A stretch of 64,000 nucleotides of DNA from Notamacropus eugenii (lineage: Eukaryota > Chordata > Mammalia > Diprotodontia > Macropodidae), in the NCBI RefSeq assembly GCF_028372415.1, contig NC_092875.1, positions 53,067,271 to 53,131,270 of the forward strand, given 5' to 3'. The notes under the pieces are model-generated. The model did no database searches. It was not told the DNA's origin and worked only from the letters and a program-made list of their open reading frames with translations. The translations under genes and the position numbers were made by a program. Below are positions 20,357-32,300 of this stretch, one piece after another; position 1 is the first letter of the stretch; the number at the start of each line of letters is the position of its first letter.

Positions 20357-23300
20357 GTATGTTCATACCAGGCTCACTTTGGCCCTGGGTGGTGGCTTCA
20401 GGTTTTTCCTCAAAGGGTACCTTAGTAACAACTCCTTTCTCCCCATTTCTACCTTATATTCCTCCTTCCTTCCCCATTTGGGATTAAATGATTAAGGAGG
20501 TGAAGCATGAGAATGAGGGAATCCAGGGGAGAGGGGAGAGGAAAGGAAGCCGGAGGCCCCTAGAATGCAATGAACAGAACAGAATATTAAGCAAGGGAAG
20601 AGAATAAGCATTTATGTATCACCTACTATGTGCCAGGCACGGCTAAACTTTACATTGTAATTACACTTGATTCTCCCAACAGCGCTGGGAGGTAAGTGCT
20701 ATTATTGCCACATTTTAGAGTTGAGGAAACCAAGGCAGGCAGAGGTTAAACTGACTTTCCCAGGGGCTGGTATCTAAGGCAGAATTTTAATTCAGGTCTT
20801 CCTAACTCCAGGCCTAGTTTGCCATACACCATGCCACCTAGCTGATTAAAACAAATAGTTACTAGTAACAGCTAACTTCAAGGTTTACAAAATGCTTTAT
20901 AAATATTATCTCTTTTTGATATTAGAGTTGTCTGTCTAAATAGTGAATCAGAGGAAGCCCTGGATCTAAAAACCAGGGATGAGGTATTCTGGGTCTGAAC
21001 ACCTTGTCATGGTGGTCCACAGTGCACATAATGCCCTGTGTGAGTAAATCCAAGGTGACTTCTGAGTTTATGCCCTTTTTCCCCCATTTTCAGATTGGAA
21101 TCATGTGCTAGAGTTTTTTTCTTAAGTTTAATGATGGTCCAGGTTCACCTGCTGGATTTAGCCCTTGGGTCTTGACACCAATGACACTGCAGAGAGCACT
21201 CCATAGTTCCTGGGGGAATGAGCAAGGCTGCTCTCCCTATGTTCTTGGGGGTTGAGGCAGGGTTATTATTCATTCATTCGTTCCTAAAGGGCTTGCCCCC
21301 TGGATCTAAGATGCTATGCTGGAGGCTGGGAGCTTGTGTGTGAGGACTCATTCTGTGTCCCTGTTCCTTTCCAGGCCCAATGTCTGTGGCTCCCGCTTCC
21401 ATTCTTATTGCTGTCCAGGTTGGAGGACCCTTCCTGGGGGAAATCAGTGCATTGTCCGTAAGTGAGAACTTCTTGTTCAGACCCTGGGCCTGGGAGTGGT
21501 GGGGGAAGGGGTTCCTGCAGAATCGCCCCCTTCTAAGATAGGAAAGCAGGCTTTACTCTACAAACAGAGTGGGAGAAGTGGAGAAAGGGCTCTTGGAGTC
21601 ACCTCCTTCTTCTCGGCCTGGGCAGGAGGATCCCTGTCCTTCTCTAAGAGCATCCTTTTTCTTTTCCTTGACTGCCTCCAAGAAATAGAATTCTGTTGTC
21701 ATTCCTGATCTGCCAGGGATGTCCTTCATGATGTCCCATACATCCTTCTGATGATAGCTTCATCTCAGTTCATGTTATTATGCCTATTTACAGATGAGAA
21801 AACTAAGAACTGGAAAGGGGTTGGAACTTACCCAAGATCACACAGCACATTAGTTTCTGAACCATGACTCAGACTTAGGGGTCCTCCCTCCCCATCCTGA
21901 AATCCTTCCCTGATTCACAGTGTTCCAGCAGGTACAGCAGATGGAGGGGCCAACTCATGCACCTTATCCTTACTGTTTCCCTATTTTCCTCTTTTCAGCC
22001 ATTTGCCGGAATTCCTGTGGGGAAGGGTTCTGCTCCCGACCCAATTTGTGTGCCTGTGCCAATGGACAACTCTCCCCCAGCTGTGGTGCCAGTGGAGGTG
22101 AGGGGGCCTAGGAGAGAGGGTAGGAGATGAGGGGAAAGGGAGGCGTGGAAGGGACAGAGAAGACTTGAGAAGTGAGGAGGAAAGGAGAATGGGTGAGGGA
22201 TTCAGGAAGTGAGGGAATTAAACTTCCTTTTGGGAAAATCATGACAGACTCACAGAATGTCTAAGCTAGGAGGCCTCTTAGAACCCAATGTGTCAGAACT
22301 GAGAGGGTCCTTAGAACACAGAATGTCAGAGCTGGAAGCATCCTTAGAGGACAGAATGTTAGAACTGGAAGGGCCCTTAGAACATGAGATGTCAGGGGTG
22401 GGGTGGCATTTAGAAGTCATCTAGTCCAGCACCTTCATTTTATACATAGAGAAATGAGGGACAGAGAAGGAAAGTGATTTGCTCAGGATTATATAGTATG
22501 TTAGGACTAAATCTGGAATGCAGGCAGGGATCAAGATGACCTCCACTTTTGTTCTTTGACACTGGCCCAAACACCTGGCTAATTTTGTATTTTTTCCTTA
22601 TTGGTCTGTCTTATCTGCCTGCCCTGCCACTACAAGATAGGCAGCCTCCTCAGATCACTTCTTACTTCCTTCCACAGTGCTAACTGGTAGGCACTGAAAT
22701 GAGGAATCCTGCCTCTGTCAAAAAGTAACTATGCTAAAGACGTTACAAATATTATCTCCTTACAACAAGCTGAAGAGGTAGGTGCTTTTATGACCCCCAT
22801 TTTACAGTTGAGAAAACTGAAGCAAAGAAAGGTTAAGCAACTTAGTCAGAATCACACAGTTACTAAATGTCAGAGGCCAGACTCAAATTTGGGTCGTCCT
22901 GACTCTAGAGCCAACACTGTCCACTGTACCACCTGGCTGCCTTCAGGTGCGAGCTACCTGCTAGATGATGGTACTTCTGTTCGATTACTTAGCCATAGGG
23001 CTAATAAGTAATAGGTACTGAAGGTCAGATACACAGACACTGTTTTCCCCAGCCCCACAAAGGCAGATACCACCTGATTATAATATTCATAAAAACTCAA
23101 GAACAATTTTTAATAGATGTTACCATCCCAAATACTCACAATCTCTAAACCATATGGAATGGAAACCTTTCAAAATCTAGAGACTGGGCCAAGGGGTACA
23201 TATCACCCCTGTTTTCCTGTCTGCTTCTGAAATTGTCAAGGTTACCTTTGGTAAGCCCATAGAGCAGGGATGCTGAACCTTCTTTGTATCTTGTATCCCT

Positions 23301-29300: not shown

Positions 29301-32300
29301 CCTCTAGGTTACCAGCAGCTTTGCAATAGATATCAGAGGTTAACCCAGCATTCTTTTCCCCTAGAACAGGGAGTGCTGCCCTTCGAGTCTATGCTACCAC
29401 CCAGGGCTGGTCCCTCCTGATTAACATAGCTCTTCCTCTATCTCTCTCCAGCTGTGTGTGAACAGAGTTGTCAGAATGGGGGCCGCTGCATTGGCCCCAA
29501 CCGTTGTGCTTGTGTCTATGGCTTCACTGGGCCGCAGTGTGAGAGAGGTAGGTAGAATGCCTTGTGCCAGGAGGCAAGCCCAGAGGAAGCCTCTGGACAA
29601 ACGGGGTGATGGAGTGGGGATGAGGGGCAGGAGTGGGGAGGAGTCAAGGGTACCTGAGGATTGAAGGCGTAGTAGGGCAGGCTTAGGTGGGAGAAGGGAT
29701 CTTTGGGCAGGCCTTTCTGGAACGACCCTGGATAGGAGTGAGAGTTTGGGGTGGGTAGATGGGGGGGGGGCGGGGCTGGGCTACGAGAGTAAAACTGTGC
29801 TTTGGAAGTGCTAAGTCCTTCATGTCTTCTCAGTGCTATTAACAGATTTTACCTTTAAAAAGTACATTTTCAAGTGTGATTCAATTGTTCTTTAGCCTGG
29901 AGAGTAAGTGCAAGCAGGAAGACCTGTGTCATCCCATCTCATGCTCCTTCTTTCCCCAGCTTTTCTTACTCTTCTTCTTTCTCTTTCTTTTCTATTTCCT
30001 CCTCCTTTTCCATATCTCCTTTTTTTCTCCTCCTTCCCATCCTCCTCCTTCTCTGGAACCCTCTCTAGAACCCCTGGGGAAATGCAGTAGGGCTGGAACG
30101 CTGGGGTTTGCCCTCCTCTGATGGGCTTTGGCCTTTCTTGTTGGGAGAGTGACCTGCCAAAGGCTTCCCAGCCCAAGCCAGACTCTCTAGGCCCCTTGGG
30201 TTGAGCCCTGCAGCACCCTTCCTATCCTGAGCCTCTTAGGGGTCTTGACTTTTTCAAATGCCACAGCATAGCTCAGTGCGAAGAGTTCCAGATCTGAAGT
30301 CACCCGGCTTGGATTCAAATCATCTCTGTGATGCTTGCTCCCTGCATGACCTTGAGCAAGTCCATTTAAATGTCTCTGAGCCTCACTTTCCTCATCTGTA
30401 AAGAGCCAGACTTTGTAGCATCTGAGCTCCCTTGCAGATCTAAATTGAAGATTCTGTGATTGTTTTTCCCTTTTTAAAATTTTTTTGGGGGAAGAGAGGC
30501 AATCAAGGTTAAGTGATTTGCCCAGGATCATACAGCTAGTGGATTTGAATTCAGATCTTCTTGACTCCAGAGCCAGTGTGCTATGCACCTGACTGCCCAA
30601 TGAATTTCGATGAATCTGTGACCCGGTTAGTGTTGGCATTTCCTCCACTTGTGCAGATCCTAATCCAGCCATGCCTTCTCATTCTGGACAATTCTTGTCC
30701 CTTTTCCTCCTTAAATACTCTCTAGAAGATCTATTCAATGTGTGAAAGACCCCCTTCTGGCTCTTTTCATGGTCTGATTGTCCTGTGATCTGAGACTTCC
30801 ATGAGTCACAGTTACATGCAGCACAAAAGGGATAATAACAGCCATCACTGATATCACTGTTCAGTGTTTACAAAAAGGCCTAAAGACAGTGTGGTGCAGT
30901 GAATAGAGAGCCAGCCTTGGAGCCAGGAAGACCTCAGTTCAAGCTCAGCCTCTGTTTGCCTCAGTTGCCTCGCTGTAAAATAGCCATGACAACAGCACCT
31001 ACTCTCCAGGTGGTTGTGAGGGTTCTTAGTGCAGTGCCTGGCACATGATAGGTATAATACAAATAGGAGCTATTCCTATTGTTGCATTTATGTAATTACT
31101 ATTATCAATGAAAGCAAAGTCCCTGTCCCTATCTATCCCAAATGACCTTCACAACATCCATGTAAGGTAGGCACTACATGTGTGATTTTCCTCTGTTTTC
31201 ACATGTGGAAACTGAGGATTAGAGAAAGAAAGTTTCTTGCCCAGAGTCAAAGAGCCCACAAGTATTAGCAGTGGGATTTGCACTCGGGTCTTTCCTGTCT
31301 CTCAGTCCTATGCTCTTTCCACAACACTTTGCCACCTCTTCTTGTCTTGTTTAAAAGCTAAAAAGACAGGCTCGGTGACCAGCAGCAGTTTGAGATTGCT
31401 GAAAGAACATGACATAACTTCCTAAATTTAACCTTCGTTCCTCTTCTATCAAACTCTGGGTACTTCGCTTTGTCAATTAGAGGTGTCTTTCTAACAGGAC
31501 AACTTGATAAACTGTCCTATAACTGCATCTTACCATCCGGTCAATAGGCATTTTTCATTCTTGTGGTGTATCCTGTGTGCATGTAGAGAGACACACACAT
31601 GTATATACACATATAAGATTGCATGTACATATATGTATGTGTGCACACATATGCATGTGTACATGTGCATATAGATACAAATACATGTGTATACATATAT
31701 ACATATATAAGATTGTGTATACATGTAGTACGTACATATAGGCATGTATATACACATGTACATGTGGGTGCATGTGTGTGATATGTGTGTATGTTGAATT
31801 CTCAAGTGATAATGGACAATTATAACCATTACAAATTAACCTTTCTAGTGTTTCAAGGTTTACATAGTCCTTTCTTGACAACAGCTCTGTGAGGTAGGTA
31901 GTACGAAAATCATTATCTCTATTTTACAGATGAGTAAACTGAGATTCAGAGATCTGTGACTTTTTCAGGGTCATGCCGTTAGTAAGTGTTAGAGTTGGGA
32001 CTTGAACCGAGAGTGTCCTTACCCTTTTCCTCTTGAGGTCAAGCTGCTTTTATTAAGAACATCTGGCAAACAGAATCAGAAAGGAAATCACTTCTGGAAA
32101 AGGGAATGGGGAGGGGGATGTGAGGCTGGAGACACAAAGGGGCCTTTGCTTGTTTGTGCAGCCTTTGCCGACATCTTGTATGCATAAAATGTCTTCAAAC
32201 AGGAGGTTTCCCAAAGCACTGGTGGATGGGCTTGAATTGAGCTTGGGGCCAGAAATCAGACAGACTCTCCAGCTGTGCAGCCAGCTGTTCTCCACCAAGA

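Follow-up and report, generated by a model that had tools for sequence, protein, structure and literature searches.

Fibrillins carry three consecutive EGF domains ahead of hybrid 1 (Hyb1), and the question raised by the fibrillin gene in this 64,000-nucleotide stretch of the Notamacropus eugenii genome (the window) is whether the second of them, EGF2, has been lost. A first-pass annotation of the DNA had placed exons for EGF1 and EGF3 and described the 7.35 kb between them as free of an EGF2 exon. We confirmed that an EGF2 exon is not recognisable between EGF1 and EGF3 of this gene, which is best read from its sequence as fibrillin-3 (FBN3) of the conservative type; both flanking exons lie where they had been placed, with AG/GT borders (Table 1). 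The favoured explanation, which we regard as probable, is a real, in-frame loss of the symmetric EGF2 exon from FBN3, although one assembly without transcripts cannot prove such a loss.

Searches of the 7,354-base intron by tblastn, profile, frameshift-tolerant alignment, splice-bounded segments, cysteine spacing and Pfam gave nothing above chance. The tblastn check, which the first-pass annotation had itself suggested, used fibrillin-1 EGF2 (the core from PDB 2m74, and a version of it extended at both ends) and a fibrillin-3 EGF2 as queries, and returned only fragments, at 19.6 bits or less among the matches listed; as yardsticks, the EGF2 cross-match to EGF3 in the window scored 28.9 bits and the true FBN1 EGF2 68.2 bits. 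Fibrillin-2 EGF2 served only in the profiles. An EGF2 profile made from three sequences scored at best 19.0 on the plus strand of the intron, a value that 27% of 300 dinucleotide shuffles also attained; on the minus strand it scored 21.7, below 24.7, the 95% point of the plus-strand null against which both strands were judged, no separate minus-strand null being made. The frameshift-tolerant scan peaked at 32.3 on the plus strand, a score also attained by 11% of 200 shuffles and by 14% of 100 decoy profiles, and at 25.3 on the minus strand; EGF1 and EGF3 scored 44.3 and 67.7 by the same measure, and six stretches of equal length from other parts of the window, partly overlapping and from both strands, scored 28.0 to 32.7. 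Open segments of 75-180 nt lying between splice sites in phase 1-1 numbered 131 on the plus strand, none of them with six cysteines, and 158 on the minus strand, of which five held at least six, none EGF-like by eye. Regardless of phase, six cysteines never fall within 45 codons on the plus strand, and on the minus strand they do so in three overlapping, non-EGF stretches. The three plus-strand frames of the intron gave no Pfam match at E<=1, and DNA patterns written for CMNGG[ST]C, for CQKGYIGT and for the end of the exon plus donor were unmatched in the intron with up to 3, 3 and 2 mismatches, respectively. The EGF2 exon DNA of FBN1 from the same genome matched the intron at best with E 0.085, on the minus strand.

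How readily an exon would have been seen was gauged in 2,000 simulated trials. A six-cysteine EGF2 was detected in 100% at identities of at least 30% outside the cysteines, in 99.95% at 20% and in 92% at 10%; for a decaying exon, detection fell from 97% at 20% substituted sites to 70% at 30% and 24% at 40%. These figures are somewhat optimistic, as the simulation started from a sequence that had helped to build the profile and left out insertions and deletions. A working EGF2 in the intron is nearly excluded, and an old, decayed relic could remain. That the exon is present and too diverged to be seen was among the readings first offered; we now consider this, or an exon with unusual splice sites, very unlikely, given this power and the lack of any six-cysteine open stretch on the plus strand. 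What fits it is SCLCQK (22707-22724, plus strand), the best short EGF2 match, which matches the fibrillin-3 EGF2 over six residues, but this motif lies within chance by the shuffle and decoy rates of the frameshift-tolerant scan, has equals elsewhere in the window and is overlapped by the left end of the MIR-like tail of a short interspersed nuclear element aligning from 22710. With another MIR consensus, the alignment starts only at 22728 and SCLCQK lies outside it.

Two candidate relics were rejected. One, at 22678-22727, includes SCLCQK and has near-right cysteine spacing by eye and an upstream pyrimidine-AG; its score falls within those of shuffles, decoys and other window stretches. The other, eleven residues at 24585, fits two cysteine spacings, but a stop follows and its profile score of 10.3 is below the shuffle mean. 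An origin of the latter in a long interspersed nuclear element was not confirmed: Pfam gave no match, and the open stretch behind it had no meaningful match in PDB.

The same tblastn, run as a positive control on 30 kb of contig C24, finds the EGF2 of this genome's fibrillin-1 at C24:4662835-4662915, 96% identical to human. FBN1 there keeps EGF1 (4650788), EGF2 and EGF3 (4666865) within about 16 kb; its EGF1 and EGF3 exons are homologous to those of FBN3 (DNA identity 69% and 73%), and the two genes differ in that FBN1 has retained EGF2. Genome-wide, the EGF2 search gave FBN1 at E 1.9e-11 and its next match at E 0.24, among the 10 places listed; as only 13 candidates were scored, a diverged EGF2 elsewhere could escape it. 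The EGF3 exon DNA of FBN3 occurs once in the genome, so that a second FBN3 copy with EGF3 was not found, a search that a loose small piece carrying EGF2 alone would escape. Collections of viral contigs and of genome contigs yielded 6 and 49 pattern matches, respectively, for relatives of Hyb1, none of which is a relative.

The gene around the gap gives no sign of decay. Both flanking exons are symmetric (phase 1-1) and intact and they join in frame, so that the reading frame stays open across an EGF1-EGF3 splice. FUN, EGF1, EGF3, Hyb1 and the domains from there to cbEGF10 are open, no frame break was seen in the matched coding parts from cbEGF1 to cbEGF10, and the usual marks of a pseudogene, such as stops, frameshifts or the loss of splice sites, were not seen; stops in joined or overrunning matches fall outside the domains, in intron. 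Of 19 domain cores, 13 were given exact exon borders, a check confined to the window: 12 have AG/GT as listed, and the thirteenth, cbEGF5, was listed one base early and has AG/GT as well, its border reading ACAG/ACC. Downstream of the window, 30 matches form a colinear chain that accounts for 1,504 of the 1,738 residues in the rest of FBN3, and the C-terminal exon is present. Five of the 30 matches hold stops, which we read as overruns into introns or bridges across them. Four stretches of at least 10 residues are uncovered by the chain: three are single domains found by pattern (Table 1), and the fourth, the first 117 residues after cbEGF10, lies partly in letters reading N. Apart from that one stretch, FBN3 looks, on sequence, otherwise complete in its expected domains.

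The assignment to fibrillin-3 draws on several features. The Pro-Gly-rich unique region and a fibrillin-3-type EGF4 are both present: the unique region (45573-45797) matches human fibrillin-3 at E 7e-16 and has no such match to fibrillin-2, EGF4 is 90% identical to fibrillin-3 versus 74% to fibrillin-2, and the C-terminal end 56% versus 48%. A FUN domain with four cysteines follows a furin-type site, and TB and hybrid domains are set among cbEGF arrays through to the C-terminal domain. The N-terminal domains are mixed: FUN (96% versus 81%) and Hyb1 (84% versus 77%) are closer to fibrillin-2 than to fibrillin-3, and EGF1 is closer to fibrillin-3 (74% versus 68%). Overall the gene reads best as a conservative fibrillin-3, which agrees with the report that the unique region of fibrillin-3 is fibrillin-2-like in amphibians, birds, marsupials and monotremes (PMC3306419). 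The gene shares with FBN3 of other vertebrates the order FUN, EGF1, EGF3, Hyb1, Pro-Gly-rich region, EGF4 and cbEGF, and differs in the EGF2 exon, which was not found here; where fibrillin-3 has a row of three non-calcium EGF domains leading up to hybrid 1, only EGF1 and EGF3 were found.

On the favoured reading, part of the intron was deleted and the EGF2 exon with it, while the gene stayed functional. We favour such a loss because the window lies on a 478-Mb contig (in an assembly of 3.445 Gb in 254 contigs), no other good EGF2 match was listed for the genome and the gene looks otherwise complete. The same contig speaks against the second reading first offered, that the animal has the exon but assembly lost or collapsed the part of the intron that contains it. 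The window is free of N, as are the 95 kb readable downstream of it, the sole tandem array reported in the intron is just 108 bp (22277-22384, with a 33-nt unit), and the error would have had to strike this one exon, the other expected domains being present. The intron had been called repeat-rich, which by the measure available holds only moderately: 16% of its sequence is similar to some other part of the window. An assembly deletion is, in our estimate, the main alternative, less likely than a real loss; it would agree with the conservation of EGF2 elsewhere, and it draws on several of the observations that follow.

These observations weigh against a loss. The cysteine arrangement from FUN to EGF3 is described as absolutely conserved in an alignment that spans the three human fibrillins and various species (PMC3794157). 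Mammalian fibrillins are likewise said to have a 100% conserved domain signature, save for one alternatively spliced fibrillin-3 domain, in a study that included opossum fibrillin-3 (PMC3306419); a loss of EGF2 would thus be exceptional. The genome-wide EGF2 search did not return the EGF3 exons of FBN1 and FBN3, though these resemble EGF2 at 39%. Fibrillin-2, expected because marsupials are reported to have three fibrillins (PMC4019825), was not seen in genome searches with EGF3, EGF2 and cbEGF6-TB2, none of them a dedicated FBN2 search; those with EGF3 and cbEGF6-TB2 showed fibrillin-1 and fibrillin-3, and that with EGF2 fibrillin-1 only. Its failure to appear hints either that the assembly is incomplete, in keeping with an assembly deletion, or that the first-look filter misses relatives.

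Further evidence of this kind comes from the face that EGF3 turns to EGF2. EGF3 retains V149 and P163 (FBN1 numbering), whose side packs against EGF2, and the CT with which it begins would still suit the codon for Pro148, which they complete after an EGF2 exon ending in C. FBN1 of the same genome has this arrangement (EGF2 end GGACAAC/GTAAGT, EGF3 start ag/CT), whereas after EGF1 the CT of EGF3 gives Ala. With the roles of these residues taken from fibrillin-1 (PMC3794157), an unchanged face with no known partner in the absence of EGF2 suggests that the loss is recent, that the face has another use, or that EGF2 is present in the animal, the last as an assembly deletion would have it. A very recent event would also fit a deletion that is polymorphic or private to the sequenced animal and not fixed in the lineage, a reading to which a single assembled sequence lends itself and against which we have no direct point, but which we consider improbable. 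For the fuller proposal, a permanent lineage loss of EGF2 from fibrillin-3 with FUN-EGF1 hinging directly on EGF3-Hyb1 and the contact with LTBPs cut down, we judge the case evenly balanced.

If the exon is lost, the predicted product can be outlined by analogy with fibrillin-1. There, the FUN-EGF1 and EGF2-EGF3 pairs are rigid, with a flexible linker of seven residues between them, and EGF1 has no aromatic residue for docking between cysteines five and six (PMC3794157). The EGF1 of FBN3 (ANGQLSPS) likewise lacks this residue, and the EGF1-EGF3 splice gives C-GASGAV-C, a six-residue linker. GASGAV would thus take the place of the seven-residue linker and connect FUN-EGF1 with EGF3-Hyb1, in a rod one domain shorter; as EGF1 has no docking aromatic, the hinge would remain, with EGF3 next to it. 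EGF1 and the linker matter for the N-to-C contact of fibrillin-1 (PMC3794157). The first-pass annotation pointed to a shortening of the N-terminal rod that interacts with LTBPs. This should be put more weakly, since LTBP1 binds fibrillin-1 mainly at Hyb1-cbEGF1, EGF2-EGF3 being the weaker half of the contact (PMC5548924). The predicted product would keep this stronger site and lack the EGF2 part of the weaker contact.

We found no description of a fibrillin that lacks EGF2 in the open-access library searched, as covered by titles, abstract openings and passages, and none appears in the passages seen of PMC3306419, PMC4019825, PMC5548924, PMC3794157, PMC12620623, PMC8322146 and PMC11021029. Two known cases come near. 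A splice variant of human fibrillin-3 likewise has an omissible N-terminal domain (PMC3306419), but there the domain is left out by splicing, whereas in this gene it is the exon that is absent. Rodent Fbn3 is also a loss of FBN3 sequence in a mammal, but in mouse and rat the gene has stops and a large deletion (PMC11021029), and no break was seen here. In fibrillins, EGF2 separates the flexible hinge from the region that binds LTBPs, and its cysteines are reported as conserved throughout (PMC3794157). A true loss would mean a natural fibrillin without a domain kept from lower animals to humans, and a natural test of which N-terminal parts are needed in microfibril assembly; a working example would show which roles in TGF-beta control and in the building of microfibrils belong to EGF2 and which to EGF1, the hinge and Hyb1. 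Were the gap an assembly fault, it would call for caution in fibrillin annotation.

Table 1. Features of the FBN3 locus (window positions unless noted; a slash within letters marks an exon border)
Feature	Position	Strand	Details
Likely first coding exon	20193..20356	+	signal-like start, furin-type site RVRRRG, then donor GTATGT
FUN domain exon	21375..21457	+	83 nt; AG/GT
EGF1 exon	21999..22097	+	99 nt; phase 1-1; ends G/gtgagg; AG/GT
EGF1-EGF3 intron	22098..29451	+	7,354 bases; no EGF2 exon or significant relic found
EGF3 exon	29452..29547	+	96 nt; phase 1-1; begins ag/CT GTG TGT; AG/GT
Hybrid 1 exon	41284..41481	+	
cbEGF1 to cbEGF10 with TB1, Pro-Gly-rich region, EGF4, TB2, hybrid 2	42057..63889	+	second part of hybrid 2 near 63033
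Domains missed by the chain, found by pattern	86352, 94666, 101456 (joined coordinates)		

The end of the likely first coding exon was placed by its frame with the FUN exon, and the exon is fibrillin-3-like. The cbEGF2 exon is intact here (43607-43732); presumably human fibrillin-3 skips its counterpart, and the alternatively spliced human domain, which we take to be cbEGF2 and which was reportedly described by Corson et al. in 2004, may correspond to this exon. Within the EGF1-EGF3 intron, the segment 22251-22496, which holds the 33-nt tandem array, is similar to as many as 24 further sites across the window. A 48-nt direct repeat (23088-23134 and 24937-24984, 81% identical, 1.85 kb apart) brackets open-reading-frame-like remains at about 24565-24810, which are perhaps those of an old mobile element.

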